Shown piece after piece: positions 33,380 through 56,500 of a stretch of DNA of 64,000 nt; position 1 is the stretch's first letter; each line of letters opens with the position of its first letter. Under the pieces are notes generated by a model. It saw nothing but the letters and a program-made list of their open reading frames with translations. It ran no database searches and was not told the origin of the DNA. Source of the DNA: Artocarpus heterophyllus. Taxonomy: Eukaryota; Streptophyta; Magnoliopsida; Rosales; Moraceae. The stretch is taken from NCBI GenBank assembly GCA_025403435.1, contig JAJQZP010000058.1:185773-249772 (forward strand), in the 5' to 3' direction. A program made the position numbers and the translations under genes.

Positions 33380-36300
33380 CTAAGTGAGTAAATATAGCAA
33401 ATTTCGCATCCCCATAGCTTCCACATGCCTTTCGAAGGCTCTCCCAGTAAGTGTCTTTGTAAATGGATCAGCTAAATTGTCCTCTGACGCGATCTTGCAC
33501 ACCGTGACATGCTCGCTCTCAACGAAGTCCTTTATCACATGATACTTCCGATCAATATGTTTACTCTTCTTGTGAAATCTTGGTTCCTTAGCATTAGCTA
33601 CCGCCGCACCGTTATCACAATACAGTGATACCGCTTTATACATACTAGGAACTACCTCAAGATCTCCAAGGAACTTGCGGAGCCACACTACTTCTTTTGA
33701 AGCATCACTAGCCGCCACATACTCGGCCTCCATCGTTGAATCCGAAGTGCAATCTTGCTTTGCACTTCTCCAACTAATGGCACCGCCACCCAGAGTAAAC
33801 ACAAACCCCGAAGTCGATTTCCTAGAATCCAGACAGGATTGAAAATCCAAATCAGCGTATCCTAGAGGAGTTAAATCCTCACCCGAATACACAAGCATAT
33901 ACCCTCGAGTCCTTCTCAGGTACTTGAAAATATGCTTTACCGCAACCCAATGGTTCGGTCCTGGATCCACCTGAAATCGACTCACAATCCTGACCGCATA
34001 GCTAATATCTGGTCGAGTGCAAAGCATGGCATACATGAGACTACCCACTGCCGAAGCATAAGGTACCTTCTTCATGTATTCTCTTTCTTCATAAGACTTT
34101 GGAGAGTCTTTCTTAGAAAGAGTAATTCCAGACCTAGATGGTTGTCCACCTTTCTTGGAATCCTGCATTGCAAACCTCCTAAGAATTTTATCTATGTAGC
34201 CGGCCTGTGACAAAGCTATCATTTTGTTCTTCCTATCCCAAAAGATCTAGATACCGAGAACAAAATTAGCCTCACCTAAGTCCTTCATGTCAAACTGCTT
34301 GGTCAACCATAATTTGATTGATGACAATGCCCCAACGTCATTGCCAATTAGCAGAATGTCATCTACATAGAGTAGTGGAAAAACCACCTTCTCATTCTTA
34401 ATGTGTTTGTAAACACATGGTTCATCCACGTTTTGTGAGAACCCATAAGTCTTGATGACTTGATCAAATCTTATGTTCCAAGAACGAGAAGCCTACTTAA
34501 GTCCATAAATAGACTTTACCAGCTTACAAACCTTACCCTCTTGACTCGCGACCTTGAACCCGTCTGGTTGTTCCATATAGATGGACTCATCAAGATAGCC
34601 ATTAAGAAAAGCCTTCTTGACATCCATATGCCAAATCTCGTAGTCGAGAGTGGCAGCTATGGACAAGAGAATCCGAATGGACTTAAGCATGGCTACGAGC
34701 GAAAAGGTTTCCTCATAATCGATTCCTTCCTTTTGCGTATAACCCTTAGCTACCAGTCTAGCCTTAAAGATTTCGACCTTTCCATCCACTTCTCTTTTCC
34801 TCTTGTAGATCCACTTACACCCTATGGGTTTTACCCCTTCGGAAAGATCCACAAGCTTCCAAACCCGATTAGTATCCATAGACTTCATCTCAATGTTCAT
34901 GGCCTCTGTCCAGAGTCTTGAATCAACATCCTCCATAGCTTTTGCGTAAGTATAAGGATCCCTGTCATGTTCATTCGGTTCAGCCAAGAATACCTCCCCA
35001 TTGAACTTATACCTCTCAGGTTGATGCCCGATCCTCCCACTACGCCGAAGCCCCTGAGGTTGTTGTTCAGGTTTGTTTGGTTTTTCTACACCGATCAGAA
35101 TAGTTTCGTTCGGAACCTCCGGACTGAACGGATCTCCCTTTAACTCCTCAAGGACCACTTTGCTTCGAGGTTTAAAGTCGTCCATAGAACTCCCCTCAAG
35201 GAAAGTTGCATTAGTTGAAACCCCGACTTTATTTTCCTTTGGGTTATAAAAATAAACCCCTTTAGTCCCTTTTGGATATCCTACAAACACGCAAACTTCT
35301 AAACGTGCTTCCAACTTATTCGGATCCTTAAACAGGACATGAGCCGGACATCCCCATATGTGAATATGGTTTAAGGATGTCTTTCGTCTTGTCCACAACT
35401 CATGAGGAGTTTTAGGGACCGATTTTGAAGGCACATTGTTCAAAAGATAACATGCGGTTTGTAGTGCATATCCCCAAAAGGATAAAGGCAATGATGAATA
35501 ACTCATCATGGACCTAATCATGTCCAACAAAGTCCTATTCCTTCTCTCCGCTACGCCATTCTGCTACGGAGTGCCCGGTGCAGTCAAATGGGATAAAATC
35601 TCATTCTCTAACAAGTGTCCCAAGAACTCATCAGAAAGGTATTCCCCACCTCGATCAGATCAAAGTGCCTTTATGGGTCTACCCAATTGCTTTTCCACTT
35701 CAGCCCGAAACTCCCTAAACTTATCATAAGTTTTGCTTTTGTGGTGCATTAGGTACACATACCCATATCTTGAGTAATCGTCAATAAAAGTGACGAAGTA
35801 CTCATACCCTCCTCGTGCCCGGATGTTCATCGGCCTGCAAACATCACTATGCACAAGTTCTAGAACCCCTTCGGCCCTATTGCCCTTAGACCCGTATGGC
35901 CTTTTGGTCATTTTACCCTCCAAACAAGACTCACATTGAGGTATAGATTCTACCTTTAACTGACTTAAAGGTCCATCCCTTACCAACCTTTGAATCCTAT
36001 TCAAGTTAATATGGCCAAGGCGCAAGTGCCAAAGATAAGTCTTATTAGAGTGAGAAGTTTTAAGTCTTTTTGAGTCATTATCATTTATCTCAGCATTAAG
36101 CAATAAGTCCATCTTAGGTTTGATAAAATATGAATTATTTTGCATCCATCCAGAACAGATAAAAGATTTATTTTTACGAATCACCACTTTTTCATTAAAA
36201 GATACCACGTAGGAGTCTTTAAATAAAGAAGATACAGAAATTAAATTCTTTTTAAATTTAGGAACATAAAAACAATCTCGCAAAATTAAATTCCTATAAT

Positions 36301-37333
36301 TATCAAAGTAAAGATGGACATCTCCCACTGCTTCCGCTGAGACCAAGGATCCATCGTCCATCCGAAGCGTTAAGTCTTCACGTAGTAGATTTTTCGTTTC
36401 TTTGAATCCCTGCAGAGAAACACAAACATGATTAGTTGCACCGAAATCTATGACCCAGATGTCACTAGATTCCTCAACCAAACAAGTTTCTAAATATAGA
36501 AGATCACAACTACCTCCCCTGGAAAGGAAGTCCTTGCAATGCTTCTTTATATGCCCGACCTTACCACAGAAGAAGCACTTAAGCTTCTTTGGGTTCTTTT
36601 TCTTCTTCTTCTTGCTCTTGGTAGCAGTAGGAATAGAAGACTTCCCACTCTTGGCCCGTTGCTTCTTTCCATTCCCAGAGTTAGGATTGGAACCAGAAGC
36701 AGCTACCATGTTGGCCTCACTACCAGCAGGAGACTCTCTAATCAGCAGTTCAAACTCTTGTAACTGTTTCATCAGTTCTATCAAGGTCATATCTCGTCTA
36801 TTGCTTGAATTAAAAGTAGCTCTAAATGGAATAAATTCCTTAGACAGAGTCTCAAAGACCATAGTCATTTGAGTTTTAGCATCGATGTCGGCTCCATTGG
36901 TTTTAGCCTCAGCGAGGTAACCCATGACCAACATCATGTGCTCCTTTATAAATGTCCCCGGTCTCTGTCTACAGTTTAAGAGTTTTTGAAGCACCCCTTG
37001 CCATTTTGTTATGGCCTGGCCTCCAAGCATGTCCTCAAGATTATCCAAGATCTGCTTCGTAATCTTATAATCCTGATGTTGAGCCTGCAGCACGTTGTTC
37101 ATGCTAGCCATAACATAGCAGCGGGCCTGATCATTAGCATCTTTCCAGAGGTCGTACGCTTGGAATTGCTCATTACTTGAGTCTCCCGTAGGCTCGGGAG
37201 GACAAGGGTTTGTCAGTACATGTTTCAGTTTCTTAAAGGATAGGATGATGTCCAGGTTTCGTTTCCAATCGTTATAATTCTCACCGATTAATTGGTTTTT
37301 GTCAAGTATCAATGATAAAGCATTTTTAGACAT
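33380..37333 (-). pseudogene. Ty1/copia Gag-Pol, one frame with four stops
   Basis: The polyprotein of about 1318 codons starts at the ATG at 37331-37333 (MSKNALSLIL). In order it has the Gag domain, a CCHC knuckle (CFFCGKVGHIKKHC, 36536-36577), the protease site at 36437-36448, an integrase with zinc-binding HLRLGH and CESC, catalytic LVHSD and DRGGEY, RT with YVDD (34358-34369), and RNase H (SDSTMEAEY, SLYCDN). There is no frameshift. The stops are TGA at 35660-35662 (Arg in KALRSDRGGEY), and TAG at 35564-35566, 34493-34495 and 34247-34249 (Gln in family members). The protease site reads DFGA where the family has DSGA or DTGA. All these fit single C-to-T changes. The element is dead in its own coding capacity. 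Confidence 0.9.
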
Positions 37334-38959
37334 TTTCAGTCTACAATAAAGAATCATATACCAAACATAAGCAAACATATATAATAATTTAGTAAGATAA
37401 CACAATCATGTAAAATCATACAAATGTGTTTATGTGTCAAAACCTTGAAAATATCACAACCTTACAACGATAATTCCCAACTCAGAATTTAACAAGCTCC
37501 TAAGGGAGACATGCCAAATTCAATCAGGAACACGGATCCCCTCCTGATTAATATATGCCATCCAGGACCCGTATGATCCAGCATATACTAATAATCGTTT
37601 CTTTGGCCATTAATTTTATTAACAGAGCTCCTAGGGGAGGTTAAAAATAAAATTAACGTGAGTGTATAACCACCGTTTCAATATTTTATCCATGATTTAT
37701 AATCACCACCTAGGGGTGTGCAACCATAAATCATACTAAAATACCTTATCCTTTCAGAGATCCAATCTGGTACATGATAGAAATCCCTTCCTAGGGGTCG
37801 TGACCACCATGTTCTTCCTATGGACCAACGATGGAGGCCTTAGGTCCTCTCTTCGAAAACCTTCTCCCACTCAATCTTTTGAAGTCAAGGTTTTATTTTA
37901 AAATTATGCATGAACAATTTTAATATGAGCGGCACTCCCTATCCTATATGACATGTTATCAATATACATGGTAAATCATATTATAATGCAGACAAGCAAA
38001 GCAATCAAGCAAAGCTACAAGCAAAATAATAATAACCGTAATATTATGGTTCCACCCTAGAGAATAGAAAACTAAGATTACAAGAGAATAATCGAGACAT
38101 TTATCGATTCTTCATCCTTGAATCCTCAAGCTGTATCCTTCTTCATGTAATATCCATCTTCATGTCTTCAATCTCGTATGAATCGAATACTTCATATTTT
38201 CGATTATATCCAAATTTAATGTTTCTCAGAATCGTCCCAAAAATAAAACTAAAACTGCATCAAAAAAATTGCAAATTTTTTGGACACTTGGCAGCTCTCG
38301 GTCGGCAGGCCGATCTGGGTGATCAACTTGCCGATCATGAAGGTTCGGCCTACAGACAGAGCACCAAAATTTCTACCCCACTGTCGGCCTGCCGGACCAC
38401 ACGTCCGACCTGCCGATCTATGACCTTCGGCCTGCCGAACTGTGAGGTTTGGCATGCCGACCGAGTAGAAAACCTTCGTTTCAGAAAATACAATTTTAAT
38501 ACAATTCGTCAATTTTATTTTCAACAATTCAAAAACATAAAATTAGAGACTCAGAAAATACCTGGAGGCGCCATCATCAATCTTTAAGATCCGACTTCTC
38601 GTTCCGTCTTCTCTGAATAATTATTTAATTACAAAATTCTTACAAATTAAAAATTAAATAACAATTCTTAGACGGAGATGATAGTCCGCCATCTAACTAC
38701 ATGAAAAACCTAGATACACATTCTAACCTCTAAGGAACCATAACCGGTATTAATTAATTAATAAATAATTAAACAACGATTTAATTAACCATAATTAATT
38801 AATAAACATTCATCACATAATCCATGACAACATATATATTATATAGAAACTTAGAGTGTCATCTCTCTATAAAATTCAATTCAAGCATAGGAGAGATTAA
38901 GATCACAAAATTTATGCATATAACATGATCACAAACTTGCAAATTTATGTAAAAACCTC
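37334..38959 (-). other. Copia 5' leader
   Basis: This is noncoding DNA between the PBS and gag. It holds a cluster of GGCAGGCCGA / TCGGCCTGCC motifs at 38297-38465, like those in the LTR U3. The two ORFs over that cluster (38162-38587 plus, 38249-38527 minus) are products of its base composition. Confidence 0.65.
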
Positions 38960-38972: not shown

Positions 38973-39831
38973 ATTGTTGGAAACAAAGTGCGCAGCAGAA
39001 TTTTAAAAATTTTTCATCAGAGTAATTTCTAAAACACAAGTTTGACATGTTATATGTATAAATTAAACAGATCTTACTAACCTCAGTATGCCGAAGAACC
39101 TCTGTAACTTGTGTAGAGAAGTAATGTTCCAGAAGAGCCTCAACCAACTGAACTTCTTTGCTATTCTCTATCCACAACTAGAGTGAGTGTGGGCTCACAC
39201 GTACATCTCTTCCACCGGTGACTCTCCTTCCAACCAATAGAGAGAACCCAAAGCTAGTGTTCGTGATTTGTGAATAAAAGCTCTCAGGGAGTTTTTAGAT
39301 GCTCACTAGAAGAGTATCACTCTTAATCTCTCAAATTGATCTGAGTAAATCATAAGACTCACTCCCTTTTTATAGCTATTGGTCCTGGGGTCAGTCCATA
39401 TCAGATTAGGTCTCAAAAACTCGAAACAGAATTAAGTTCGGATCAATATCTGATAAGATCCACGTGAAAACGCGTAATCTTATCTCCCGTTGATTAGCAG
39501 GCCGAACATTTTGATCGACAGGTCGAACAGGCCAGTTCAGCAGGCCGACCACGTCATTCGGCAGGCCAAACTCTCTAGAAAAAATCTCTATGAATCTTTT
39601 ATTTTTCACCCGAGATTCTAAAGGATAAAGTCTTAGTTTTGATTCAAATAACCCAATAGAGAAGTTATCTGATCAAAACAATCTTTATCAAGATAATCTT
39701 TAAGGAAATAAATCAATTCACAATAATTCTACAAGTTTATCTTGTTCTAATTTGTCTAAAATTAAAATAACCGATAAACAGACAAGAATTATCTGATCGC
39801 AATAATTCAACAAGTTTATCTTGAACTAATT

Positions 39832-42190
39832 TGTAACGCCCCTATATGGGGGTTAACAGTTTTTAATGAGATAAAATAAAAATAAATAATAAAAGTAAAA
39901 CCTTAAAAATAAAATTTGCCCGGGACTTAAATGAAAACTCTCAACTCAAAAATAAAAATATAAACGACAAATAAACCACAGTTTTAATGTAGCACCTTAA
40001 ATTTAATAATATAAACTGTTGTCATCATCATTTTAACCCTCAACACATTGTAATACAGTCACAGAAAGTAACAATTGATGCTTACATTATCATGAAGAAC
40101 ATTCTCAACAATTGAAGCAGTCCCAATGTAATATAGTTACATCACTTCCTCAACTATATTTCTCGTAGCCACCTCACACTTAGTGAGTCCTGAAAAGATA
40201 TAAACATAAGGGTATGAGCAACACTATGCTCAGTAGAGAAAGCCATTACTCACCTTTAGGTTTTTATCATTACCACATTAAAATCTGCATGGTTAGTAAG
40301 TTACATCATATTCCAGATTATGAGGTTTATTATGATCACATCTTATATTACCGTAGTTAATCATTACCAAGTGTCATAATTACACATTTATACAAATATT
40401 AACAATCATCATTGTTCCTAGGTATCCATGTTAAATTGAGTATCACTCAACTCATCGAAACCCAAATGGGCGCACTTGATCACCCTATAAACATTCCAAG
40501 GGTGTTCCGGTGAGGGGACATCAAGCCCCGAGTCCTCACCAAATCGATTCCTGTACAGTGTGTTCTGGGACTTTCAACCCAAGGAAGCGTCATCGCCTTC
40601 CCCCTATTTTACCTTTTAGGGTATTCATGCCCAAGGACGTAACCGTCGCCCTCTTCATGTCTCACAATTTCTCTATATTGAATCATTATTAATAGAGTTA
40701 GTTTTCCTAACCATGCTTCTCAATTTATAACATGTGTCAATTCATTATGTTCCTCGCCGTACAATACAAGACGAGTCCATGTCATAGTTTCATATGTGAT
40801 AATCATATAATATCAGTTCAACATAGATATATATATATTGCGGCAAAACAATCAATTTTAATTCTATAAAAACCTCACAAAAGATGAGTAATAGAATCCC
40901 TACCTTTCAAGCTTATCAACAATCTTTTAATCCTGGAATCAGTTAACGTTAGCTCCATACTCCCTTGATCCTAAGGCGTGCATAAGGACAATTAAAACTA
41001 AAGCACAACATACAACTACATTCATAAATAAATCATGTGTAAACTTATCTTACTAGTATGTCATTAAAGCTTTTATATAAATCTCTTTTGAATACCACAG
41101 TAAACAATTTTTGTCTTAACACAATATAAAATGTGAACAAGTAATCTATATGTTTTAGTCCCTAATAAGATTCATCAATCACTTAGGATAATATTGGAAA
41201 GGTTGCAAGACATTAAAGAATTAGGTGGTGAGCAAAGATGGGTTCTTGGTTCAGGTTAGCAGCTGGTATACCATAACAAACTGGCAGATTTACTAGTTTC
41301 CAATACAAAAATTGAATAATTCTTAGAAAATAAAATACAACTCCGATTAGGTTTATGATAGCTCGTTAGAAAGCCTAGGATGCTACTTTTCAAATATGCA
41401 AACCAATTCATAAAATTCATTTTAATTTAATCTTAGAATTTCAAGAAATAACCACTGCCCATAGAGGTATTACAAAGTTTAACAATATAAATTTTCTGTC
41501 TAGGGCATATACACTTAGACTTCATACATATGCTCCAAAATAGCAACAAACATATACTTAGGTTTAAGAACGCAAATTTGAATAATCCTTTAGTATAAAA
41601 GAAAATTTATAAATGAAAGACTAAATTTGTTCATAAGATTCTAACCTCGGATTATGGTTAGTTGGAAGCTTGAAATGGCTTTCAAAACAGGTTCCTTTAC
41701 ATCGGTATGACTGAAATTCTTGCTCAAATGGAGGTGATGGTGGCTGATTTTTATGGCTGCCTTGAAGAAGTTCTCTAAGTATTTTGCTTCAGCAAAGAAA
41801 TGAGAAGAAGAGTGTGGGAACCGTGGAAGAGAAAGGAAGAAAAGATGAAGTCTTTGAAAGAAGTGATAGAAACAATTATAGAGGAGACATGTTGAAGCAT
41901 GTCACGGAGGAAATAAAGAAAATGAGGGTCAAGAGTAGTTGGAAAAGATATCCTTATGTCTCATCTAAAGACTTTAACACACATAATGCCAATATGACAT
42001 TTTTGAGATTTATTAGAAGTTCTAAGGCTTTTTAGTAATCATACTAAATAAATATAGGAGAATTTTAGAAAACTTAAAAATAGATAAAAATAAATATTAT
42101 AAAATAAATTTAAATGAAGCAATTTTTTTTTATACATTAAAAATTAATTTAATTACCTCAATACCCGTTAGGAGAATAACGGGTGTCACA
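39832..42190 (-). mobile_element. 3' LTR of gene-carrying element
   Basis: 2359 bp, collinear with 46452-48812. Differences seen by eye include ATTAC/GGATAC near 40350, one-base indels near 41350, 41685 and 41865, and several substitutions. The plus-strand ORFs at 40510-40692 and 41784-42035 are antisense to the element and show no product that I recognise. Confidence 0.9.
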
Positions 42191-42224
42191 GCTCTACCCC
42201 CCTTAAAGAAATTTCGTCCTCGAA
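42191..42224 (-). pseudogene. Polypurine tract and last codons of gypsy pol
   Basis: On the minus strand TTCGAGGACGAAATTTC (42224-42208) leads into TTTAAGGGGGGTAGAGC next to the LTR. The first part translates as FEDEISLRGG, the usual C-terminal end of chromovirus pol, and the purine run is the PPT. This remnant shows that an autonomous gypsy element lost nearly all of gag-pol. Confidence 0.7.
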
Positions 42225-43146
42225 ATTTCAATTCTAGCAATACTAGTAAAAATTATGATTCCACTATGATTCCAATTCCGAGTCTAAACCGTTAATGTTG
42301 TTTGTCCTCCAAATTTAAGTTATCGTATCTCCACTTATTTACTTGCATAATAAATCTTACTCCTAAATCCCTCAATAAGAGTATTTCTGACAAGTTTCAA
42401 CTTATAACACCGTATAATAGTCTAAGAATCTGATCAGGCATACATATTGACCATACCATGATTCCAGTCCTTCATTGTCCATGGACTGTGATTTACAATC
42501 ACATTTAAGGAGATTGCCAGAGTAATTTTATATACTTCATCTTTAGGTTCCTTTTCCTTTTTAAGTAAGGAAAAGTCAAATATATTTGATTTCATACCTC
42601 AACTAATAAACTAAAACATAATCATAAAACATATATCACAAACACTTTTATTCAAAACTATACATTAAACTTACTCATAGAGATATTAAACAGGAATCTC
42701 AGAGTTGCAAACATACCCGACATATTTTTCATTAAACAGCTATCCTCATGACACAAACATTCAACCCAAATAATATACTCATATTTCATATGGAATATCC
42801 CCATAACTGACTCTGGTACTTCCACATAATATTAACAGAATATTACACATTACAAACATGATACGGATACGTTTCGAGAGTACAAGGCACTCCGTATACC
42901 AGCTATCCATATCATGCATGCTTATAGGATACAAAAACATCGATAAACAAAAGATCGGACCTTAAGAAGGATGCGTTTCGAGAGCATCAAGTACTCCGTA
43001 TCCAGCCATCCCGGCATTAGGCTCAATGAATCTAAAAGATTTAACAACGACGTACCACAAGAAACACAGAATACAAGGCAAACGGTTATTCGTAACACAC
43101 GAAATACGGACACACATGCCTACATGCCAAAGATAAAACAAAAAGA
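42225..43146 (-). other. 3' noncoding stretch after the LOG-like ORF
   Basis: There is no ORF of note. It includes a 43-bp imperfect direct repeat, at 42865-42908 and 42969-43011, each with GTTTCGAGAG and CTCCGTAT and bounded by GGAT/ATCC, so each copy can pair end to end. This stretch is presumably the 3' untranslated part of the captured gene plus remnants of the parent element. Confidence 0.5.
42865..43011. repeat. 43-bp imperfect direct repeat with pairing ends
   Basis: The copies at 42865-42908 and 42969-43011 share GGATRCGTTTCGAGAG and CTCCGTAT..CCAGC.ATCC. Each copy starts GGAT and ends ATCC. Confidence 0.75.
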
Positions 43147-43797
43147 TTACAGATGGAGATTCAAATCAATTGGCCGCTCCCGGCTTTCCCTTTCCCATTC
43201 AAGCTTGGATGTTGCAGTGTCGGATTCTGGATGTATGATTTGCATTTTATCTATCAATTCCTCAGCTGTTGAAGCAGTAACAAAGATTTGTCTCTCCGAT
43301 TCTGTAGTGATGTTTTCTTCCACAGCGTAATCTAGAAATTTCAAAAGACCGTCATAAAAACCCTTTACGTTCAGCAGTCCCAAAGGTTTGGAATAAAAGC
43401 CCAACAATTGCCCACAAGCAACTATAAATATTTCCTCAAGAGTACCTAGACCACCAGGTAATGCTATAAAAGCATCAGAATTATAGATTATGTCTTTAAA
43501 ATTTTTAGGGATACTCCTGACTCCTTCTCCCTTACCTATGGCTTCCTTACAAAGGTTTCCTTCAACTGGAATATGAGGCCAAATTCTTACATCAGTAGCG
43601 TCGCTAGACCTAGCTGCTAGTGCCATATTTACCATCATTTTTATACTACCACCCCCATAGATTATGTTAATCTTCTTGCGTGCTAGGACTTGCCCTAAGT
43701 GATTTGCAGCTTCTAAATAAGCTTTATCTTTTCCAAGGCTGGAACCACAAAAGACACAGACATTCTTTATTTTCTTCGTGGACTGGGAGGTAGACAT
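43147..43797 (-). CDS. LOG-like cytokinin riboside monophosphate phosphoribohydrolase homologue
   Basis: 216 aa from the ATG at 43795-43797; the in-frame upstream codons lack an ATG. LOG enzymes release active cytokinin from its nucleotide in the cytosol. Visible are the Rossmann-like start VCVFCGSS (13-20), YGGGS (47-51), and SDAFIALPGGLGTLEE (107-122) with the family's PGGxGTxxE motif, then KPLGLLNVKGFYDGLL. Length is normal for plant LOGs. Oddities: the MHxRKxxM stretch that precedes SDAFIALPGG in plant LOGs is replaced by SIPKNFKDII, the SxGLMG after YGGGS is SIKMMV, and the C-terminus ends DLNLHL, an LxLxL (EAR-type) motif. The ORF has no introns, unlike plant LOG genes, and is undamaged. 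It is sense to the host retroelement and 644 bp downstream of ORF1. The family assignment is firm; the catalytic activity is doubtful. Confidence 0.85.
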   Translation of the reverse strand: MSTSQSTKKIKNVCVFCGSSLGKDKAYLEAANHLGQVLARKKINIIYGGGSIKMMVNMALAARSSDATDVRIWPHIPVEGNLCKEAIGKGEGVRSIPKNFKDIIYNSDAFIALPGGLGTLEEIFIVACGQLLGFYSKPLGLLNVKGFYDGLLKFLDYAVEENITTESERQIFVTASTAEELIDKMQIIHPESDTATSKLEWERESRERPIDLNLHL

Positions 43798-44441
43798 ATT
43801 TGGTTTATAGAAGTGGTTGCTTAATGTCTGCTCCACTTAGACTTCGGGTTCTACATGAGATTTTAAAGATGAGAAATATACAAAAAGGGCTAAAGAGATA
43901 GACGAGTAGGTAATGAAAAGGTAATCCAAAGATTTAAACAAAATCTTGTGCGGATAAGAAAGTAAGATAAGGTGATTGATAGTTTACAGAAAATCTGATT
44001 CACTTTTTGAAAAAGATTAGACTCTAATTGTATAACTTTTGACAATTGAGAACAATTCGACAGAAGACCCTCATTGACACAACTGTAGACTTTTTGACAA
44101 ATATACACCAAGTCTAGAAATTTAATATAAACGACAAATACTGTAGAACTTTTGAAATTTGAGACACAAATCTTGAAATATCTGGATAAGCTTTTCAAAA
44201 TTCAAACATATTACTGTACCGTATGTAACGTGTCTGATAAGATAATATATTTTATTATATATATATTTAAGAAAATCATAAATTAAATAAGATATTAACA
44301 CTTACTGTATCAATCTAATAATCACAATTATTTCAAACACAAAAGCAAATATTCTGAGTAAAAGAAAAACACAAACTGTTGAACATCAGCTAAAACTGCT
44401 TCAAATAAGTAAAGACTAAATAACCTTTATAGAGCGATGAC
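43798..44441 (-). other. Spacer between the two captured ORFs
   Basis: AT-rich. It contains a minus-strand TATATATATAAT-type run near 44247-44268 that could serve as a promoter for the LOG-like ORF. A 102-codon ORF (43890-44198) has no recognisable features and starts without good context. Confidence 0.4.
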
Positions 44442-44963
44442 TTATTCCCCATCCAGTTTTCTTATGGCTTGGCAAACAGGATCTAGAAATACCATATTCC
44501 TGAGGCGTTGTCTTTCTGTATAAAATTTAGGCCAGAGTTTAAAAATAGCTCCTTGAACATATCCACTAGGGTGACCGTGGAGAGGAGGATGGATGCTATC
44601 CAAGTTCTCCTTTGAAAGTCCATCCCTACAAAACCTTATTTTATCCTCTCTATTCGTAGACATATAACCAGGTGAAGTACATTTACCGTTACAATTTTGT
44701 CTTCCACATTTGTTACAAGTGACCACGATGGCACGAGCTCTTCTTTTCATTGCACTACGACTGGTACCTGTTCCTGGTAAACCGACATCTTGACTAAAGT
44801 CACTCGGACGGATTTTCCCCTCTATTAACATTCTCACATCACAAGGGATACCAAAACGCATAAGAATCCACAACCGAGTAATTCTAGCCTTGTATTTCTT
44901 TCTGAGAATCTTTTGGGAGAGTGATGGGAAATACTTTCTCAGGTGTTGGTACTTTGGGTCCAT
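44442..44963 (-). CDS. Basic zinc-finger protein resembling viral nucleic-acid-binding (cysteine-rich) proteins
   Basis: 173 aa, ATG at 44961-44963, stop TAA. The central part has a basic block SRSAMKRRARAI (68-79), then a Cys cluster C83-x2-C86-x4-C91-x3-C95, then SPGYMS and EDKIRFCRDG (106-115). The order "SR.A..RRA, four-Cys finger, PG.S, D[KR][IL]RF..[DE]G" is what I know from the small NABP/CRP proteins of carlaviruses and vitiviruses (Betaflexiviridae; Pfam Carla_C4), which bind nucleic acid and act in silencing suppression or symptom induction. The N-terminal part (RLWILMRFGIPCDV) and the C-terminal 55 residues are not recognised. The ORF is intact and intronless, with a pyrimidine-rich 5' leader, and sense to the element. 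Alternative: an unrelated zinc-knuckle protein. I assign the viral link from motif order only. Confidence 0.5.
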   Translation of the reverse strand: MDPKYQHLRKYFPSLSQKILRKKYKARITRLWILMRFGIPCDVRMLIEGKIRPSDFSQDVGLPGTGTSRSAMKRRARAIVVTCNKCGRQNCNGKCTSPGYMSTNREDKIRFCRDGLSKENLDSIHPPLHGHPSGYVQGAIFKLWPKFYTERQRLRNMVFLDPVCQAIRKLDGE

Positions 44964-46431
44964 GATGAGATGAAAGAAGAGTAAATAGAAAGGAAAAATT
45001 AAGATAGTAAATTGCAGAATCCTAGAATTCCTTCTTCTTTTAGAGGAAAAGAAGAATTTCTAATGAAAAAGAAGAGGATTTGCGATTTAGAGAGAAAATA
45101 ACAAATTAAGAGAGAAAAAGTGAACTCGGAGAAATAAGCTCTTATGCACAGTAAACGTATATGTAAACAATAATTAAACCACTGTATATGACACGTATAG
45201 AGACCACGTGGGAGAGACAGTGTGAATCAAACTGATTTAAGATTTGAACTAGGCCCAAATGTTCTTAGTTGAAAATGGTCAGGTTGTTTCGGGCCTTAAC
45301 ACATTTGGAACGAGTTAAATAACAAACATAAAATTGAAAACCAATTTGTATAAATCTTAAACCCAATTCAAAGCCCACTATAGATAAAGTTAACTATGAA
45401 CAACAAATCTAATTTAACGACAACAAGGATCTTCCTGAATGATATTTAAAATCATTTCATAACAACATAATCTTCCAGCAACTCAAATAATTTTGTTTTA
45501 ATCAAAACCTTATTGAACAATGCATACACCCATATGTTATTCATAATACTTAACATCTATCAATGGATTCATCATCATTACTACCAAGGGTTTAGAATGC
45601 GACTAACCTTGAAATCAATACGATTTACGTCTTTCAACATAGACCATATCAACTGAACAAAGACACTTGATGTTACTACTTAAGAACATCTACAATCCCC
45701 ACAATTCTACTCATACAATATATAATTTCCTCATATAACAAAACCTTAGGTAACCAAAAGATTCACTGATACACTTAAATACAATGTACGTAACGAAATA
45801 TTCCAATTTTGAGATTCATGCATTCTAGACTTTACACAGTCTCAACAGACCAAAAGTCTAACATTTATCTCTCTCAAGATTCAATACCATGATTCCCAAC
45901 TTATATCATATTCCTCAAATAAATAGAACTTTTAAGAAAAGATATTGACACTTATGTGCTCCATCGAATCCACACATAATCATTACTTAGGTTTGAATCA
46001 ATTACGAAAAATTTGGCATATCTATGTCAAACTTTAAAATCAATAAATCAAGCCTTATATTTCTTATTGTTTTTCACGAGACAAAAGGCTTTTAAATCCT
46101 CGTATCTACACGAATTTCTCATCGTTTATACGAATTAATATGCTTATAGATCCAAATATTATACGAATCTCTCATAAGCATTCTACTTATAAACTCATTC
46201 ATATAATTATCATTCCCTTATAACTATTAATACTTTCCTTCTATATAATTATTGTACTCATATAACTATTGATATTTTCATTCTATGGCCTTTCCATGTT
46301 ACATCCTTCTAGACTGTATAAATCAATGTGAAGGTTCATTTTGATGATGACAATGAAAATTCAGCTTCAAAACCATCTCAAAAATATATTTTTTTAAAGT
46401 GGTGCTACACTCCCTAGGTTAACCGAACCTA
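44964..46431 (-). other. 5' leader of gene-carrying element
   Basis: Between PBS and ORF1. There is no ORF of interest and I found no gag remnant. The 120 bp before the ORF1 ATG are CT-rich on the minus strand, like a plant mRNA 5' UTR. A palindromic G-box CCACGTGG lies at 45204-45211, about 240 bp upstream of the ATG, so a captured host-type promoter is possible. Confidence 0.5.
45204..45211. promoter_or_regulatory. G-box (CCACGTGG)
   Basis: A perfect 8-bp palindromic G-box upstream of ORF1. Plant bZIP/bHLH factors bind this core; its function here is inferred. Confidence 0.35.
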
Positions 46432-46444
46432 GGCTCTGATACCA
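46432..46444 (-). other. Primer-binding site (tRNA-iMet) of gene-carrying element
   Basis: The minus strand reads TGGTATCAGAGCC, seven bases inside the 5' LTR end at 46452. The match to the initiator tRNA-Met 3' end is perfect, so the element is still equipped for reverse transcription. Confidence 0.9.
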
Positions 46445-46451
46445 AAAATTC

Positions 46452-48812
46452 TGTAACGCCCCTATATGGGGGTTAACAGTTTTTAATGAGATAAAATAAA
46501 AATAAATAATAAAAGTAAAACCTTAAAAATAAAATTTGCCCGGGACTTAAATGAAAACTCTCAACTCAAAAATAAAAATATAAACGACAAATAAACCACA
46601 GTTTTAATGTAGCACCTTAAATTTAATAATATAAACTGTTGTCATCATCATTTTAACCCTCAACACATTGTAATACAGTCACAGAAAGTAACAATTGATG
46701 CTTACATTATCATGAAGAACATTCTCAACAATTGAAGCAGTCCCAATGTAATATAGTTACATCACTTCCTCAACTATATTTCTCGTAGCCACCTCACACT
46801 TAGTGAGTCCTGAAAAGATATAAACATAAGGGTATGAGCAACACTATGCTCAGTAGAGAAAGCCATTACTCACCTTTAGGTTTTTATCATTACCACATTA
46901 AAATCTGCATGGTTAGTAAGTTACATCATATTCCAGATTATGAGGTTTATTATGATCACATCTTATGGATACCGTAGTTAATCATTACCAAGTGTCATAA
47001 TTACACATTTATACAAATATTACCAATCATCATTGTTCCTAGGTATCCATGTTAAATTGAGTATCACTCAACTCATCGAAACCCAAATGGGCGCACTTGA
47101 TCACCCTATAAACATTCCAAGGGTGTTCCGGTGAGGGGACATCAAGCCCCGAGTCCTCACCAAATCGATTCCTGTACAGTGTGTTCTGGGACTTTCAACC
47201 CAAGGAAGCGTCATCGCCTTCCCCCTATTTTACCTTTTAGGGTATTCATGCCCAAGGACGTAACCGTCGCCCTCTTCATGTCTCACAATTTCTCTATATT
47301 GAATCATTATTAATAGAGTTAGTTTTCCTAACCATGCTTCTCAATTTATAACATGTGTCAATTCATTATGTTCCTCGCCGTACAATACAAGACGAGTCCA
47401 TGTCATAGTTTCATATGTGATAATCATATAATATCAGTTCAACATAGATATATATATATTGCGGCAAAACAATCAATTTTAATTCTATAAAAACCTCACA
47501 AAAGATGAGTAATAGAATCCCTACCTTTCAAGCTTATCAACAATCTTTTAATCCTGGAATCAGTTAACGTTAGCTCCATACTCCCTTGATCCTAAGGCGT
47601 GCATAAGGACAATTAAAACTAAAGCACAACATACAACTACATTCATAAATAAATCATGTGTAAACCTATCTTACTAGTATGCCATTAAAGCTTTTATATA
47701 AATCTCTTTTGAATACCACAGTAAACAATTTTTGTCTTAACACAATATAAAATGTGAACAAGTAATCTATATGTTTTAGTCCCTAATAAGATTCATCAAT
47801 CACTTAGGATAATATTGGAAAGGTTGCAAGACATTAAAGAATTAGGTGGTGAGCAAAGATGGGTTCTTGGTTCAGGTTAGCAGCTGGTATACCATAACAA
47901 ACTGGCAGATTTACTAGTTTCCAATACAAAAATTGAATAATTCTTAGAAAATAAAATACAACTCCGATTTAGGTTTATGATAGCTCGTTAGAAAGCCTAG
48001 GATGCTACTTTTCAAATATGCAAACCAATTCATAAAATTCATTTTAATTTAATCTTAGAATTTCAAGAAATAACCACTGCCCATAGAGGTATTACAAAGT
48101 TTAACAATATAAATTTTCTGTCTAGGGCATATACACTTAGACTTCATACATATGCTCCAAAATAGCAACAAACATATACTTAGGTTTAAGAACGCAAATT
48201 TGAATAATCCTTTAGTATAAAAGAAAATTTATAAATGAAAGACTAAATTTGTTCATAAGATTCTAACCTCGGATTATGGTTAGTTGGAAGCTTGAAATGG
48301 CTTCAAAACAGGTTCCTTTACTTCGGTATGACTGAAATTCTTGCTCAAATGGAGGTGATGGTGGCTGATTTTTATGGCTGCCTTGAAGAAGTTCTCTAAG
48401 TATTTTGCTTCAGCAAAGAAATGAGAAGAAGAGTGTGGGAACCGTGGAAGAGAAAGGAAGAAAAGATGAAGTCTTTGAAAAGAAGTGATAGAAACAATTA
48501 TAGAGGAGACATGTTGAAGCATGTCACGGAGGAAATAAAGAAAATGAGGTTCAAGAGTAGTTGGAAAAGATATCCTTATGTCTCATCTAAAGACTTTAAC
48601 ACACATAATGCCAATATGACATTTTTGAGATTTATTAGAAGTTCTAAGGCTTTTTAGTAATCATACTAAATAAATATAGGAGAATTTTAGAAAACTTAAA
48701 AATAGATGAAAATAAATATTATAAAATAAATTTAAATGAAGCAATTTTTTTTTATACATTAAAAATTAATTTAATTACCTCAATACCCGTTAGGAGAATA
48801 ACGGGTGTCACA
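46452..48812 (-). mobile_element. 5' LTR of gene-carrying element
   Basis: 2361 bp, TGTAACGCCC to GGGTGTCACA, collinear with 39832-42190. It would drive the transcript carrying both captured ORFs. The plus-strand ORFs within (47131-47313, 48421-48657) are antisense and also present in the other LTR. Confidence 0.9.
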
Positions 48813-49988
48813 TAATTTCTTGCAAAATTAATTCAACCGATAAATAGACATGAATTATTCGATTCTTACAAATTTTAAACCAATCTGGTAAATCCGACAT
48901 AAGTCACCAATTATTGGAAAAGCACGCCGTATCATTACTGGATTTTGTGAGCTAGCAAAGGGGACCAAAATGGACCTATAAAGTTCAAGCTCATGATAAT
49001 TATGAAACCTAATATCCCAGATATACATTTCACAATTATCAACTCCAACGCTACTCCACTAAAAGCTTGGAGCTGCACTCTCAAACTTTATAGAATTACG
49101 AAGCTCGTGTAGCTAAGTCTCCATAACATATCATAGTGTATTGCAACCCCATATGATCATCCATAATCGGCTTAAGGACAAGTTATGTCTTACCTTCCTG
49201 ATTATTTTTATCTTACGTTCCATTGTCTCACCATTAGAAAACTTACCATCCAAAGATAGTATACCATTCGGTTACACCTATGTATCCAAATGGTTGAGCG
49301 CTCCAGTTTTTCAATTACAAGACAACGCATATAAGAGGATATCATTACTCCTAAAGAGGAGCTATGGATTCCATGAATAACAAGTCTATGCTATCAAGAG
49401 TCATGCCTCCAATGTAACGGTATGCATACCACTATTGAGATGTGGGTGTCACCCTTTGGCACATCAAAAGACACAAGTCGAGACAACGGGCCCACTATTC
49501 ATCTCAGGATTAAGATACAATACAAATGACTGTCTAAAGTGAATCGATTTGCCGAGACAGAATTATTAATCCAAATCAATTCACTTTATGTCCCGATCCA
49601 ACACGTTGTCACCTATGATAACACGCCAATGTTTCCATTCACGGAGTCCAACTCCGATGGTCAAGACAAATCATCTCCCAAAAGGGATATAGACAATATA
49701 ACAATCTTTACATGAATAAAGTGTCTAACTTTATTCCCTCGATTGCGGTTTATATGTTTTAGACCGTCACCTTAAGAATCGTGTCTTCCGCATAATCAGT
49801 CCATCATATACCCAATTCTTAAGGTTTAGACTGACAGTCTCAGACTACTGTTTGCTTATCATACATTCAACAAATATTAACGTAAAGAGGATAAGATTTG
49901 GTATGTATAAATGAATAAATTCTTTATTAATAAAAATGTGTCCAAAAACATATTACTTTTTTACTCCTTAGGGCATACATGTCTAACA

Positions 49989-51080: not shown

Positions 51081-53174
51081 AGCAACATAACGGATAGGTG
51101 TTCGTACCTTATTGCAAGTAATAATTAAGATTAAAGTGGTGGATGCAGGACTACTAAATTTAGAAAAGAAAGAAAAATGACAAAGCCTTAAAAAAAAAAA
51201 AAGGACGGAAGACGACAACGGCTAGTGATCACTTTCAAGTTACAAGTGGAGCATTTATATTTAATAAAGTAACTCCCTGTACTATGAAGACAAGACAATG
51301 ACGGACAATAAAACGTTCAAATGATAGTGACAACTGGCTAGTGACAACGGACAATAAGACAAGACAAGCCAACGGCTAGCTGGTGACGAGATTTTCTTGT
51401 AAAAAAAATGATAGTAGTAATAATAAATGATGAGATAACGGGCTTGTGTTATAACATAATTAATCAAGTTATCTTACACCATCATCAATTCAATACAAGT
51501 GTCAATGTTATTGTTATATTTGTCACCAAAGCCATAAAAAAAATTGAATACAAAATTGAAAATTTTGATTTCAACGAAATGATCATCAATTTCAAATGAA
51601 ATTAAAATGAAAATTTAGCCAAAAACAGGGAAGTAAAAATCTTTTTAACAAAATGGTTAATACATATGGGGTGTATATAAGGGTGCAATTATATAATCTT
51701 AATATTAAAAAGAAAATAATTTAAAGTTTTAAACAGTTCTGGATGCCTTAATAAAAACTTGGGGGTGTAAATGAAATTTCCCAAAAATAATAGTAATAAA
51801 AAATAATGAGATACCGGGCTTGTGTTATACCGTAATTAATCAACTTATGTTAGACTCTTGTTAATTGAAGTGTTAAAACTGAAGCCAAGTGGACAAACAG
51901 AGGAATTAGTTGGATGATCTGGATTTACATATAACCATTAGCAGGCATTCTGCATCCTTAGTTGCCAAAATTACCAAATGCTTTAGCTTGACGAGAGGAA
52001 GAGAGGATTGAACTGTCACCTACTGAACTACTGAAGTATGGGATTAAACACAACACGTTATTGGGCACACGCTGAAAATTTTAGGGATCTATTGGCAAAT
52101 ATTTATAAAAATTCTGCTCCAATTTTTAATTTTTCAAAAATGAAGGAGTCAAAATACAAACTTCATATGATAGATATTTTAAAAAAATTCCCCTTAAATT
52201 TTACTAAATTAGCGTTTGACCTCAATTTCTAGAAAAAAATAAAGCGTAAAGCCCACATCCTAATAACATAACATCAAACGTAGGATTAGATTAACTAAAA
52301 CTTAATCATATCCTATCTAATATTGTTATGTTCTTCGCATCAAACGGGTCCTTGAGACCAATGCCAAACTAGAACGAGATCTTAGTTACTTAGTTTAAGT
52401 TTGCATCTCTCCAAAGAGCGTTACTTGTGTATTGCAAAATCTAAATTCTAAAGCTAACAAGTCTAACGGCGATTGTCCAATTGTTGGAAGCATCCCTTCA
52501 AAAATAAATATTTTTCTATCATTATTGAATAAATATTTTTTTTATATTAATTAAGTAATGAGCCGGAAAGATGCAAAATTAATATGCATTTGAAATTTAA
52601 GGATATAATTTTGAGAACATCCAAAATGTAAGGTTGTTTTTTTTATTATCTTATAAACTCAAGATGTAAGACATAAAATCGAAATAATCCTGATATAATA
52701 GTGGAACGTGTGAAAGTTTCTTTTTCACCTGAAGAAGCCAACGGCTAGTTCCATTTAAAATATAGTTATTAGAACGTTAGGGATGAATGACATTACGTTG
52801 GCAATTCCCAAAACAAAAGGGCATAAGGCAACATAACGGATAGGTGTTGGTACCTTAGCACAATTAATTATAATTTTTTTATGGTCAAGTAATTATAATT
52901 AAGATTAAAGTAGTGGATGGAAGATGCCAAGGACTACTTACTTTCAGAAAGAAAAAGAAAAAAATGACAACGGCATTAACAAAAAAATAAAAGAAAAAAA
53001 GGAAGAAGACAACGGTTAGTGGTCACTTTCATGTTATTGCAAGTGTGGGACACAATGATAAGCCAACGGTCATAAATGATGATGATGATGATGATGATGA
53101 TATCCGGCTGCAACTTAAAAAAAAAAAAGAAATCTGCAATAATATCCAGCTGAAGTCCACATGGATTAGTTTGT
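51081..53174 (+). other. CNL upstream region with internal repeat
   Basis: About 2.1 kb matching 20106-22169. It contains two copies of the GGCAACATAACGGATAGGTGTT block (about 51083 and 52817), each followed by GATCACTTTCAAGT- and GCCAACGG-like words, and a (GAT)n run at about 53078-53101. No ORF is credible. The conserved blocks nearest the TATA are the best candidates for promoter elements. Confidence 0.6.
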
Positions 53175-53182: not shown

Positions 53183-53507
53183 GTGGGAATAGCTCACTCT
53201 TGACTTCTCACACTGCTTTCAAACCATAATCTTAATTTGCCTTTGAATTTTGATTTGCTCTAAAATACACATACGTACTCTCTGTTCTAAGTTTCCATTC
53301 CAATTTACCAACTATTCCTCTCTTTTATTTTCTGTTGTCTTCACATTCCTGAAATCTTTATTCAACATAATCTTATTTGCCTTTTATATATAAATATATA
53401 GATATAGATAATAGTTCTAAAACACTCCACCATTCCACTTTCCACGTTTGATCACCTTTCGCTTTCCTTTATATACACAATACATTCCATATCAACAACT
53501 AGAAATA

Positions 53508-56500
53508 ATGGCTGGAGTAGTACTCCTCACCATTGCTGAAGGAATCATTGCAAACGTGGCTTCTGAAGCTCTCAAAAAAATCAGACTGTCGTTTGGATTT
53601 AAGGACGAGCTCCGCAAACTTCAGCAAACTGTCACCATAATCAAAGCTGTGCTTCTTGATGCAGAGGAGAAGAAAGAGTCCAACAATCCAGTCAAAGCGT
53701 GGCTCGACAGTCTTGAAGATGTTATCTACGATGCTGATAACTTGGTTGATGAGTTTCGCTACCAACAACTACGCCGGAGAGTGCTTTTTGGTAAGAAAAA
53801 GGCAAAGAAGGTACGCGTTTTCTTCTCGAGATCAAACCAACTTGTTTTTAGACTGAAAATGGCTAAGAAAGTTAAACAAATTAGAGAGAAGTTAGATGAG
53901 ATTAAAGCCAATCAGGTTTTTTCTCAATTAGTCAAGGGTCCTGAAGGGACACATGTCCCCTCTAAAATTAGCTGGAGGGAGACTGAATCGATTGTTGCTG
54001 ATGAAGTCATTGGGAGGGATGATGACAAAAGAAAGATAATAGATCTTTTATTATTAGAAAACAACGTTGAAGATAAAGAAAGTGTGTCCTTTGTTTCCTT
54101 AGTCGGTATTGGAGGATTAGGGAAAACCACATTAGCTCAGTTAGTGTTTAATGATGAGTTGGTCAAAAATCATTTTGAGAAAAAAATGTGGGTTTGTGTT
54201 TCCGATGATTTCAATTTGAAGTTACTTATTCGAAAGATTATTAGCTGTCTAACTGGTACAAGTCCAGATCTAAACCTTGATTTGGAGCCACTACAAAATC
54301 AGCTTAGGCCACAAATAGAAGGTAAGAGATACCTTCTTGTATTAGATGATGTTTGGAATGATAACGATTGGCGGGAATGGGATAGGCTGAAAACATTCTT
54401 AAAGTTAGGTAAAAAGGGCAGCAAAGTATTGATAACTACTAGGAATACAAGTGTTGCTGAGATTGCTGATTCGACTAAAACATATATGTTAAGTGATTTG
54501 GGTGAAGAAAAGTCTTGGGATTTATTTGAGAGAGTAGCATTTAAGAAAATGGACAAGACAACCAGCCTTGTAGAAATAGGAAAGGATATTGTGAAGAAGT
54601 GTAAAGGAGTTCCCCTTGCTATAAAGACAATAGGAAGTCTTTTGCAATCAAAGAAAGATTCCTCACAAAACCTTGAACGCGAGTGGAAGTTGTTTAGGGA
54701 CAATGAACTTGCAAAAGTAGCTTATCAAAATGATAGTTATGGTATTATTTCAACGCTTAAGCTAAGTTACAATAATCTCCCTTCACACTTGAAAAGTTGT
54801 TTTGTTTACTGTAGCTTATTTCCAAAGGATCACAGGATTCATGTACAACAACTAATAAAACTTTGGATGGCACAAGGGTTTATTAAACCTGATGAGCCAA
54901 GACAACCAGAAGATTCTGGTTATGAGTGTTTTATGATTTTATTTTCAAGGTGCTTTTTCCAAGAAGCTGAAAAAGGTGAGTTGTCATCCACAACTATAGA
55001 GTACTGTAAAATGCATGATCTCATGCATGATCTTGCAAGTCAGGTGGCAGGTAAGAGCATAAAAATAATAAATGACAGTGACCCAACAAATGCTATTGAA
55101 AAGGTTTTTCATCTATGTGCTGATTTTCCACCTTTTAGTTCATGCCAGATTCCAACAATGTTGTTCGAACAAAAAAAGATGCGCACATTTATTTTACCAT
55201 CCAAGTACGTAAGTTTGAGTTCAGTAAATTTTCATGGTGTTCTGTCAAATTTTAAGCTCCTACGGGCACTCACTCTAAGAATTAAAAGCCCTGATACGGA
55301 GACTTTGCCAAATAGCTTGGGTAAACTAAAGCATCTTAGATATCTTGATCTCTCAGATACTAGTTATATCAAGGAGCTTCCAAATTCCATAACAGAGTTG
55401 TATTATTTGCAAACATTAATCCTTTTTTCTTGTGACAGTCTTGTAAGTTTGCCTGCAGGTATAAAAAATCTAATTAATTTGAGGCATCTTGAGATTAGAG
55501 ATTGTAAGGAACTGACTCATATGCCCCGTGGAATTGGTGAATTGACGTCACTTCAAACATTAGATAGGTTTGTAGTGGCAGGCGACAATTCAAGTGAAAG
55601 TGCAGGACTTGGTGAGCTGTGCAAGCTTAACAACTTGCGTGGAGGTTTATTCATTGAGATTTTGGGACTTGGAGATTTAGGGGCTGGACGATATTATTTA
55701 AAGGACAAGCAACATCTTGAGTCATTAGACATTATTTGGACAGAGGAAGATATGGTAGGGAATGCTAAAGAAGCATGTAAGCGCTTAGAGCCACCTCCAA
55801 ATATAAAGGCTCTACACGTGTCCTATCCAGGTGAGACATTTCCAGATAATTGGTTTTCTTTGCTCACTAATCTTGTTCAATTGCAAATAGATGGTTGTGA
55901 GAATTGCAAATATCTGCCACCACTGCACCATTTATCTTCCCTTAAGGAACTTAAACTTGAAAATTTGTCAGCTTTAGATTATGTTTCAGATAGGGATAGC
56001 GAGTGGGGCAGAGGTGACCACTCATCCAACTCTTCGACAATATCCTTCTTACCATCCTTAACAACACTTATGATTCAACAATGCAACAATCTGAAGGGAT
56101 GGTGGGAAAGAGAAGGAGAGGATTTCGGTAACACAATAACAGACCATCAACAACCTTATTTTCCTGCTCTTTCAAACCTAGTAATATTCGACTGCCCTGT
56201 TCTTACCTCCATACCCCTGTTTCCAAACCTCAAAGAGCTGGAACTACGTAACACAAGCTCCAAGCCACTACAAAGAACGATTATGATGAAATTGGAGAGT
56301 GATATTAATGTTGCAGTAACGTCATCAATAGCATCGACATCTTCATCCTCCTCTCCATCCTCTCTCTCCAATTTGAAGTGTTTAAATATTCGCTGTGTTC
56401 ACGATTTGGAATCCCTGCTACCGGAGGGAATACACAACCTCTCATCGCTTCAATCACTGGGTATTTTTGAATGTTCAAATTTGTCCTCAATTCCGAATGA

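Follow-up and report, generated by a model that had tools for sequence, protein, structure and literature searches.

A high-copy LTR retrotransposon family of Artocarpus heterophyllus that lacks gag-pol and keeps NABP-like and LOG-like genes under purifying selection

Why would a long terminal repeat (LTR) retrotransposon without gag or pol carry two intact genes of other kinds? The question is raised by an element on the minus strand, at positions 39832-48812 of a 64,000-nucleotide stretch of Artocarpus heterophyllus DNA (assembly GCA_025403435.1, contig JAJQZP010000058.1), called the window below. An earlier note on this stretch had seen in it a young element that transduced host cDNA, perhaps delivering a cytokinin-related protein together with an RNA-binding or silencing-related one. 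Our reading, to which we give a probability of about one half, is that it belongs to a non-autonomous, high-copy LTR family whose sole coding content is an accessory module with a counter-silencing role, namely a gene for a nucleic-acid-binding protein (NABP) followed by a gene resembling LONELY GUY (LOG). The layers of this reading differ in strength: the anatomy is nearly certain, an accessory module under selection is highly probable, and the counter-silencing function, which is drawn by analogy, is tentative.

A gag-pol-less element and its copies

The element is an LTR retrotransposon, with two LTRs, a target-site duplication, a primer binding site (PBS), a polypurine tract (PPT) and copies at different sites. 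Its parts all lie on the minus strand and, read in element sense, run from a 5′ LTR of 2361 bp (46452..48812) through the PBS TGGTATCAGAGC (at 46444-46433, 7 nt inward of the LTR), a leader of ~1.49 kb, the NABP-like open reading frame (ORF; 44442..44963), ~0.64 kb, the LOG-like ORF (43147..43797) and a further ~0.95 kb to the PPT-like AAGGGGGGTAGAGC (42191..42204), which adjoins the 3′ LTR of 2359 bp (39832..42190); the target-site duplication TAATT stands on the left at 39827..39831 and on the right at 48813..48817. We take the PBS to be that of initiator tRNA-Met (iMet). The codons just before the 3′ LTR read NFEDEISLRGVE (42192..42227), a pol-like C-terminal remnant that is presumably an ending of the type found in chromovirus pol; beyond this tail and the iMet PBS, no reverse transcriptase (RT) is left for placement in a tree, and the backbone may be labelled chromovirus/Tekay-like only tentatively. 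Both ORFs run from ATG to stop, the NABP-like one encoding 173 aa and the LOG-like one 216 aa (651 bp including the stop). Apart from these two, no sense stop-to-stop frame of the internal region (4261 bp) is longer than 103 aa (the shorter ones were not put through Pfam), and gag-pol is therefore absent. The window element is thus not an autonomous Ty3/gypsy element.

The anatomy given in the earlier note, from the TAATT duplication, the LTR lengths, PBS, PPT and pol-like tail to the missing gag-pol and the two intact sense ORFs, was confirmed throughout, and its description of a young, non-autonomous Ty3/gypsy-like element is supported. It had also counted about ten differences between the LTRs; near-identical they are, the actual figure being 12 differing alignment columns (3 transitions, 3 transversions and 6 gap columns, hence six substitutions). 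The Kimura two-parameter distance (K2P) between them is 0.0026, which at a substitution rate of 1.3e-8 places the insertion at about 0.1 million years ago.

The element is not a single oddity; it represents a high-copy and recently mobile family. In the searched genome (985 Mb, 334 contigs) the first 36 nt of the NABP ORF have 1,814 exact matches and an LTR 45-mer has 4,453, against 0 for each reversed pattern, and chance is therefore no explanation. The internal region as query gave 44 matches at 94-100% identity (40 scored of 4,508 candidates), while the window LOG protein found a 100% identical place without a stop in 150 of 150 scored cases, these being the best-ranked of 6,120 candidates. 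A further 20 copies were fetched from the best-scoring list, in which young copies are over-represented. All have LTR and internal matches, and the internal region is unbroken in 18; both LTRs could be measured within the stretch in 14, of which 12 have 5-bp target duplications and six have no LTR substitution at all. Many copies with different target duplications thus exist, as the earlier note had predicted for a mobile family, and its worry that the window copy might be the only one fell away. Among the first 100 listed LTR sites, on one contig, this element's spacing recurs in 37 of 39 consecutive same-strand LTR pairs, and an exact NABP start lies inside 21 of those 37.

Structural variants were observed as well. 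The LTRs of copies L014-L028 are either ~1.97 or ~2.36 kb long, the shorter kind lacking positions ~1198-1574 of the window LTR. Copies L009 and L015 form head-to-tail LTR-internal-LTR-internal arrays, and a similar arrangement at C9:16537152-16564376 holds five identical LOG copies at ~6.65-kb spacing, which suggests tandem amplification through unequal exchange.

Selection on both ORFs and an older module

Purifying selection acts on both ORFs, as seen in the comparison of 18 copies and again between subfamilies. The LOG ORF is intact in 20 of 21 rows, the exception (L020) having a 1-nt deletion. All 20 complete NABP rows have their ORF intact; a clipped row from L024 was dropped from this count. 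For the selection test, 18 full copies were compared with the window (L026 and L027, with the internal region in two pieces, were dropped), and expectations were taken from the element's own non-coding substitution spectrum. Distinct substitutions number 49 per kb in LOG, 39 in NABP and 71 in the rest of the element, where 24 indels were also found, as compared to one in LOG and none in NABP. The LOG changes are 17 synonymous and 15 nonsynonymous (omega 0.37, P = 0.003), and those of NABP 12 and 8 (omega 0.25, P = 0.001). Between the window and four divergent loci of the same genome (L029-L032), dN/dS is 0.16-0.49 for LOG and 0.14-0.36 for NABP (finite values, dS being saturated in two pairs). 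The ratios below 1 that the earlier note had named as a sign of selection were thus obtained on both time scales. The LOG segment of L030 (7657-8304 region, element sense) is ~82% identical to the window and its flanks are ~94% identical, a mosaic structure indicative of recombination between subfamilies.

The NABP-LOG pair is also an older module, of fixed order and spacing, that occurs in an Athila-like, gag-bearing family with a different PBS. With a Populus-like LOG as query, this genome gave further LOG families, 46-58% identical and free of introns across the part that matched (150 of 5,894 candidates being scored), and at all four divergent loci fetched an NABP lies upstream of an open LOG frame. 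L030 and L032 have the window's LTR (88-94%) and PBS. L031, which has no match to the window LTR, carries the PBS TGGCGCCGTTACCGGGG / TGGCGCCGTTACC, unlike the window's, and shows Retrotrans_gag frames, a protease-like region, NABP and LOG in that order, with no RT between the protease-like region and NABP-LOG. We take its PBS and gag-protease type to be Athila's; the window element, with TGGTATCAGAGC, does not have the TGGCGCC-type PBS of that lineage. No LTR pair was seen within the 10 kb of L031, and LTRs were sought and none resolved at L029. Genome-wide, at least 72 of 150 LOG places are preceded on the same strand by a listed NABP, the median distance being 1.2 kb, whereas none has one on the opposite strand or once positions are shifted by 1 Mb. 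Similarly, at least 65 of 107 scored gag-protease places have a listed NABP downstream (110 rows, less three second-piece rows), and at least 42 of 150 LOG places have a listed gag-protease upstream. Offsets were taken in low-end coordinates, so that those on plus and minus strands differ by the feature length, and the gag-NABP offsets therefore fall into two clusters, near 1.74 and 2.35 kb. Since the same pair stands in a gag-bearing, different-PBS family of the same genome, it is an old accessory module.

Outside the source genome there are at least 856 NABP relatives and at least 5,291 LOG relatives, named from Populus, Xanthoceras, Acer, Hibiscus, Rhamnella and Orobanche, among others. Two sequences of at least 5 kb match in size between the top-120 NABP and LOG lists (8,723 bp, and 22-Mb Xanthoceras) where 0.017 would be expected from slid lengths, which suggests that NABP and LOG are linked in other genomes too. 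Two predicted Xanthoceras LOG proteins (P0017 and P0018, of 359 and 336 aa) have a duplicated LOG segment and are possibly merged gene models. A canonical Musa LOG query of the source genome returned only intronless copies, at 43-51% identity (150 scored of 5,624); in a search of this kind the host's own LOG genes are hidden by the mass of transposon-type LOGs. An intron-bearing pair outside LTR elements, which the earlier note had held would count against it, was nowhere seen in searches that did not resolve the host's LOG genes.

The two proteins and the readings they allow

The NABP-like protein is a relative of flexivirus nucleic-acid-binding proteins. It has a zinc-finger-like CNKCGRQNCNGKC (44679..44717, minus strand) with a basic KRRAR stretch before it, recognised from the sequence, and its Cys columns are conserved in the alignment. 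Alone, it matches the Pfam families Viral_NABP (0.0096) and Carla_C4 (0.1) under both curated cut-offs, with 16.3 bits against the Viral_NABP cut-off of 23. At E ≤ 0.001, Viral_NABP is matched by 77 and Carla_C4 by 76 of 95 aligned relatives, with no other Pfam family appearing among them, and the L029 NABP stands above the Carla_C4 cut-off (23.3 vs 20.9). A structure model built from 16 sequences was poor (pLDDT 54), and one from 95 sequences reached 74.5. Flexivirus cysteine-rich proteins (CRPs) act as silencing suppressors in potato virus M (PVM) and citrus yellow vein clearing virus (CYVCV), according to passages in PMC10219291 and PMC12172455. For the window NABP we infer silencing suppression by homology only, and the earlier note's hint of an RNA-binding or silencing-related protein would fit it better.

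These viral affinities invite another account, in which retrotransposons would have taken both genes, a flexivirus-like CRP and a LOG, from a virus. The NABP family matches nothing but viral families at E ≤ 0.001, and six of the 11 fold matches of its model in BFVD, none of them significant, are named flexivirus nucleic-acid-binding, RNA-binding or silencing-suppressor proteins, a seventh being a hypothetical betaflexivirus protein. However, no virus with both genes was found (the NABP alignment scanned against viral_contigs gave 54 pattern stretches and no relative, and LOG was not scanned there), and the direction of transfer is only presumed, which leaves a viral origin rather doubtful.

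The LOG-like protein matches Pfam Lysine_decarbox (9e-22) and resembles AtLOG3 (PDB 2a33) at the fold level over 200 residues (E 2e-43). In the C. glutamicum enzyme (CgLOG), Arg99 and Glu122 are catalytic, the prenyl site, as in AtLOG3 and CpLOG, consists of M96, H97, K100, E125 and W129, and alanine at AMP-binding or catalytic residues including Arg99 nearly abolishes activity, S19A excepted (as stated in parts of PMC4979012). The window LOG has N instead of Arg at position 99 and I, P, F, I and G at the five prenyl positions, while Glu121, Glu122 and PGGxGTxxE are retained. L032 resembles it at these residues (Arg99 to Asn), and GGGSxGLMG is broken in both; L029 and L030 retain R99 and not W129, and L031 retains R99, M96 and W129. 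Active-site residues have been lost stepwise across the loci. Because the catalytic Arg and the prenyl-pocket residues are replaced, cytokinin activation by the window LOG is unlikely, as is the delivery of a working cytokinin protein that the earlier note had envisaged, and a working cytokinin enzyme was rejected for the window family on these residues.

The C-terminal IDLNLHL of the LOG-like protein (43150..43170, minus strand) fits the EAR consensus, given in a passage of PMC6283911 as LxLxL. An exact LxLxL ending is found in 87 of the 120 best LOG matches (the window's included), against 70 of 17,400 shuffled tails, and 83 of those 87 have at least three K/R immediately before it; canonical Musa LOGs among the matches listed are without it. 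Within the source genome the strict ending is present in the window, L032 and L029. The closest non-self relative among the matches listed is at most 49% identical, and the window branch of the LOG tree is long (1.45) and its place not settled, with 7 of 27 rows in neither label group. The LOG-fold protein probably serves as a nuclear adaptor through its LxLxL tail.

In the mechanism that we propose, an LTR-driven transcript would encode both proteins, and gag and pol would be supplied in trans by other Ty3/gypsy elements. The NABP would bind RNA or DNA and protect RNA or weaken the silencing directed at the element, much as flexivirus NABPs serve their viruses, and the LOG-fold protein, rather than working as a cytokinin enzyme, would recruit a TOPLESS-type corepressor via LxLxL. 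A bolder version is doubtful: in it, the NABP suppressor and a LOG-fold protein converted from a hormone enzyme into a TOPLESS-recruiting nuclear adaptor would form a portable counter-silencing cassette of two proteins that moved among two or more LTR lineages, took the place of pol or gag-pol in each and is parasitic on the gag-pol of other elements. Several observations weigh against the proposed explanation. The protein functions are predicted from sequence, as is TOPLESS binding; the motif LxLxL is short, and two of the four divergent LOGs of this genome, L030 (FDLNLSM) and L031 (WDLSL), are without the strict ending. The NABP is complete in L029 only, being broken or truncated in L030, L031 and L032, and its model is uncertain (pTM 0.39), with no significant Foldseek match in PDB and 11 insignificant ones in BFVD (best E 0.36). 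Selection could be on source copies only. Finally, the first 100 listed LTR sites yielded no gag-pol partner with the window's LTRs. One pair alone in the 3-10 kb range was odd-sized (8,680 bp) and was tried as an autonomous partner by LTR sharing; in the 2,201 bases sampled it matched neither the element nor LOG nor NABP and showed no frame above 103 aa and no gag-pol.

The missing partner bears equally on a bipartite arrangement, in which the family gives NABP and LOG-like protein in trans to gag-pol elements that are without them and receives gag-pol in return. A module held intact by selection in a gag-pol-less element would fit this, as would an Athila-like family with gag-protease and module and no RT between; yet, besides the partner not found among the LTR sites sampled, selection on the trans-acting product of a parasite-like element would be hard to maintain without cis preference, and we regard the arrangement as improbable. 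Passenger transduction, in which the ORFs are captured cDNAs without a role that are intact because the burst is young, is quite improbable. Bs1-like gene capture is a known process, and with copies 98-99% identical and LTRs near-identical there was little time for decay, but the synonymous excess and the near absence of indels when the ORFs are set against non-coding DNA of the same element, the dN/dS of 0.14-0.49 across an old subfamily divergence, and the same ordered pair in another backbone, with related proteins in the six plant genera named above, all argue otherwise. Recent capture of host cDNA, the earlier note's Bs1-like proposal, was likewise rejected as the leading explanation: the window LOG ORF is not near-identical to a host spliced mRNA, the best non-self LOG among the matches listed being 49% identical (host LOG exons were not resolved), its LxLxL tail is common to many relatives and missing from the canonical Musa LOGs listed, and the pair is common to two backbones. 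That the LOG ORF is a working phosphoribohydrolase altering host growth in the element's favour is very improbable: the fold, PGGxGTxxE and the Arg99 kept at three of four divergent loci would allow it, but the replaced Arg99 and prenyl residues and broken GGGSxGLMG in the window and L032 speak against it, as does the near loss of CgLOG activity when AMP-binding or catalytic residues, Arg99 among them, are changed to alanine (parts of PMC4979012).

The window also contains neighbouring features, recognised by eye: a Ty1/copia-like element at 33380-37405 (minus strand), whose frames for gag (CCHC), integrase and RT/RNase H are fragmented, and a 1418-aa open frame at 53421-57677 (plus strand) that is CC-NB-LRR resistance-gene-like and has many nearly identical LRR units in succession. 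Upstream of this frame lies an 83-bp direct repeat (51411-51493 and 51787-51869), 82% identical and 376 bp apart.

Comparison with known systems

The ORFs of non-autonomous retrotransposons are usually lost. That a family numbering well over 1,000 copies has dropped gag-pol and yet keeps two ORFs under purifying selection suggests that the proteins help it spread. A virus-type, suppressor-like gene held in common with RNA viruses and an enzyme shedding its catalytic residues, with EAR-tailed relatives, are candidates for plant retrotransposon counter-control. The annotation LOG-like or 'LOGL10' may cover many plant genes that are in fact transposon accessory genes; Populus proteins named LOGL10 are among the nearest LOG relatives in the matches listed, their location in transposons being only presumed. 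In the open PMC literature we found no report of the NABP-LOG pair, of its sharing by two backbones, of the EAR-like tail or of a high-copy gag-pol-less family keeping both ORFs.

Parts of this picture have precedents. Steinbauerova et al. reportedly noted in 2011 two Athila-like elements with similarity to LOGL4. LOG/YgdH domains are described in Citrus and Populus Ty3/gypsy elements (passages of Alvarado-Marchena et al. 2022, PMC9289625), which share with the window family a LOG-family domain within gypsy LTR elements. In those passages the elements are an RT-anchored consensus with a domain match only, and NABP is not mentioned; the window family differs in being gag-pol-less, in its iMet PBS, and in its linked NABP, measured selection, lost catalytic residues and EAR-like tail. 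The retrotransposon NABPs resemble carlavirus and flexivirus NABPs (Carla_C4, Viral_NABP) in having a basic stretch and then a Cys-rich finger, whereas they are LTR-element-encoded and longer at both ends, the window copy scoring under both cut-offs. Similarly, the window LOG shares with plant LONELY GUY phosphoribohydrolases (AtLOG3) the fold over 200 residues and PGGxGTxxE, and differs in the replacement of Arg99 and all five prenyl-site residues and in its C-terminal LxLxL.

VANC proteins are anti-silencing proteins of VANDAL DNA transposons. An AlkB demethylase ORF is described for orchid Gypsy elements in a passage of PMC9289625. The likeness of both to the NABP-LOG module is as transposon accessory proteins thought to counter host control, though VANC is a different protein in a different element class, and the AlkB elements retain gag-pol. 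Maize Bs1 and other gene-transducing LTR elements are known, as are non-autonomous elements of the LARD type, and the window family is like them in having non-gag-pol coding content in an LTR element and a high copy number without gag-pol. Unlike Bs1, however, it carries an old module, found in two backbones and kept by selection, rather than a recent host cDNA.

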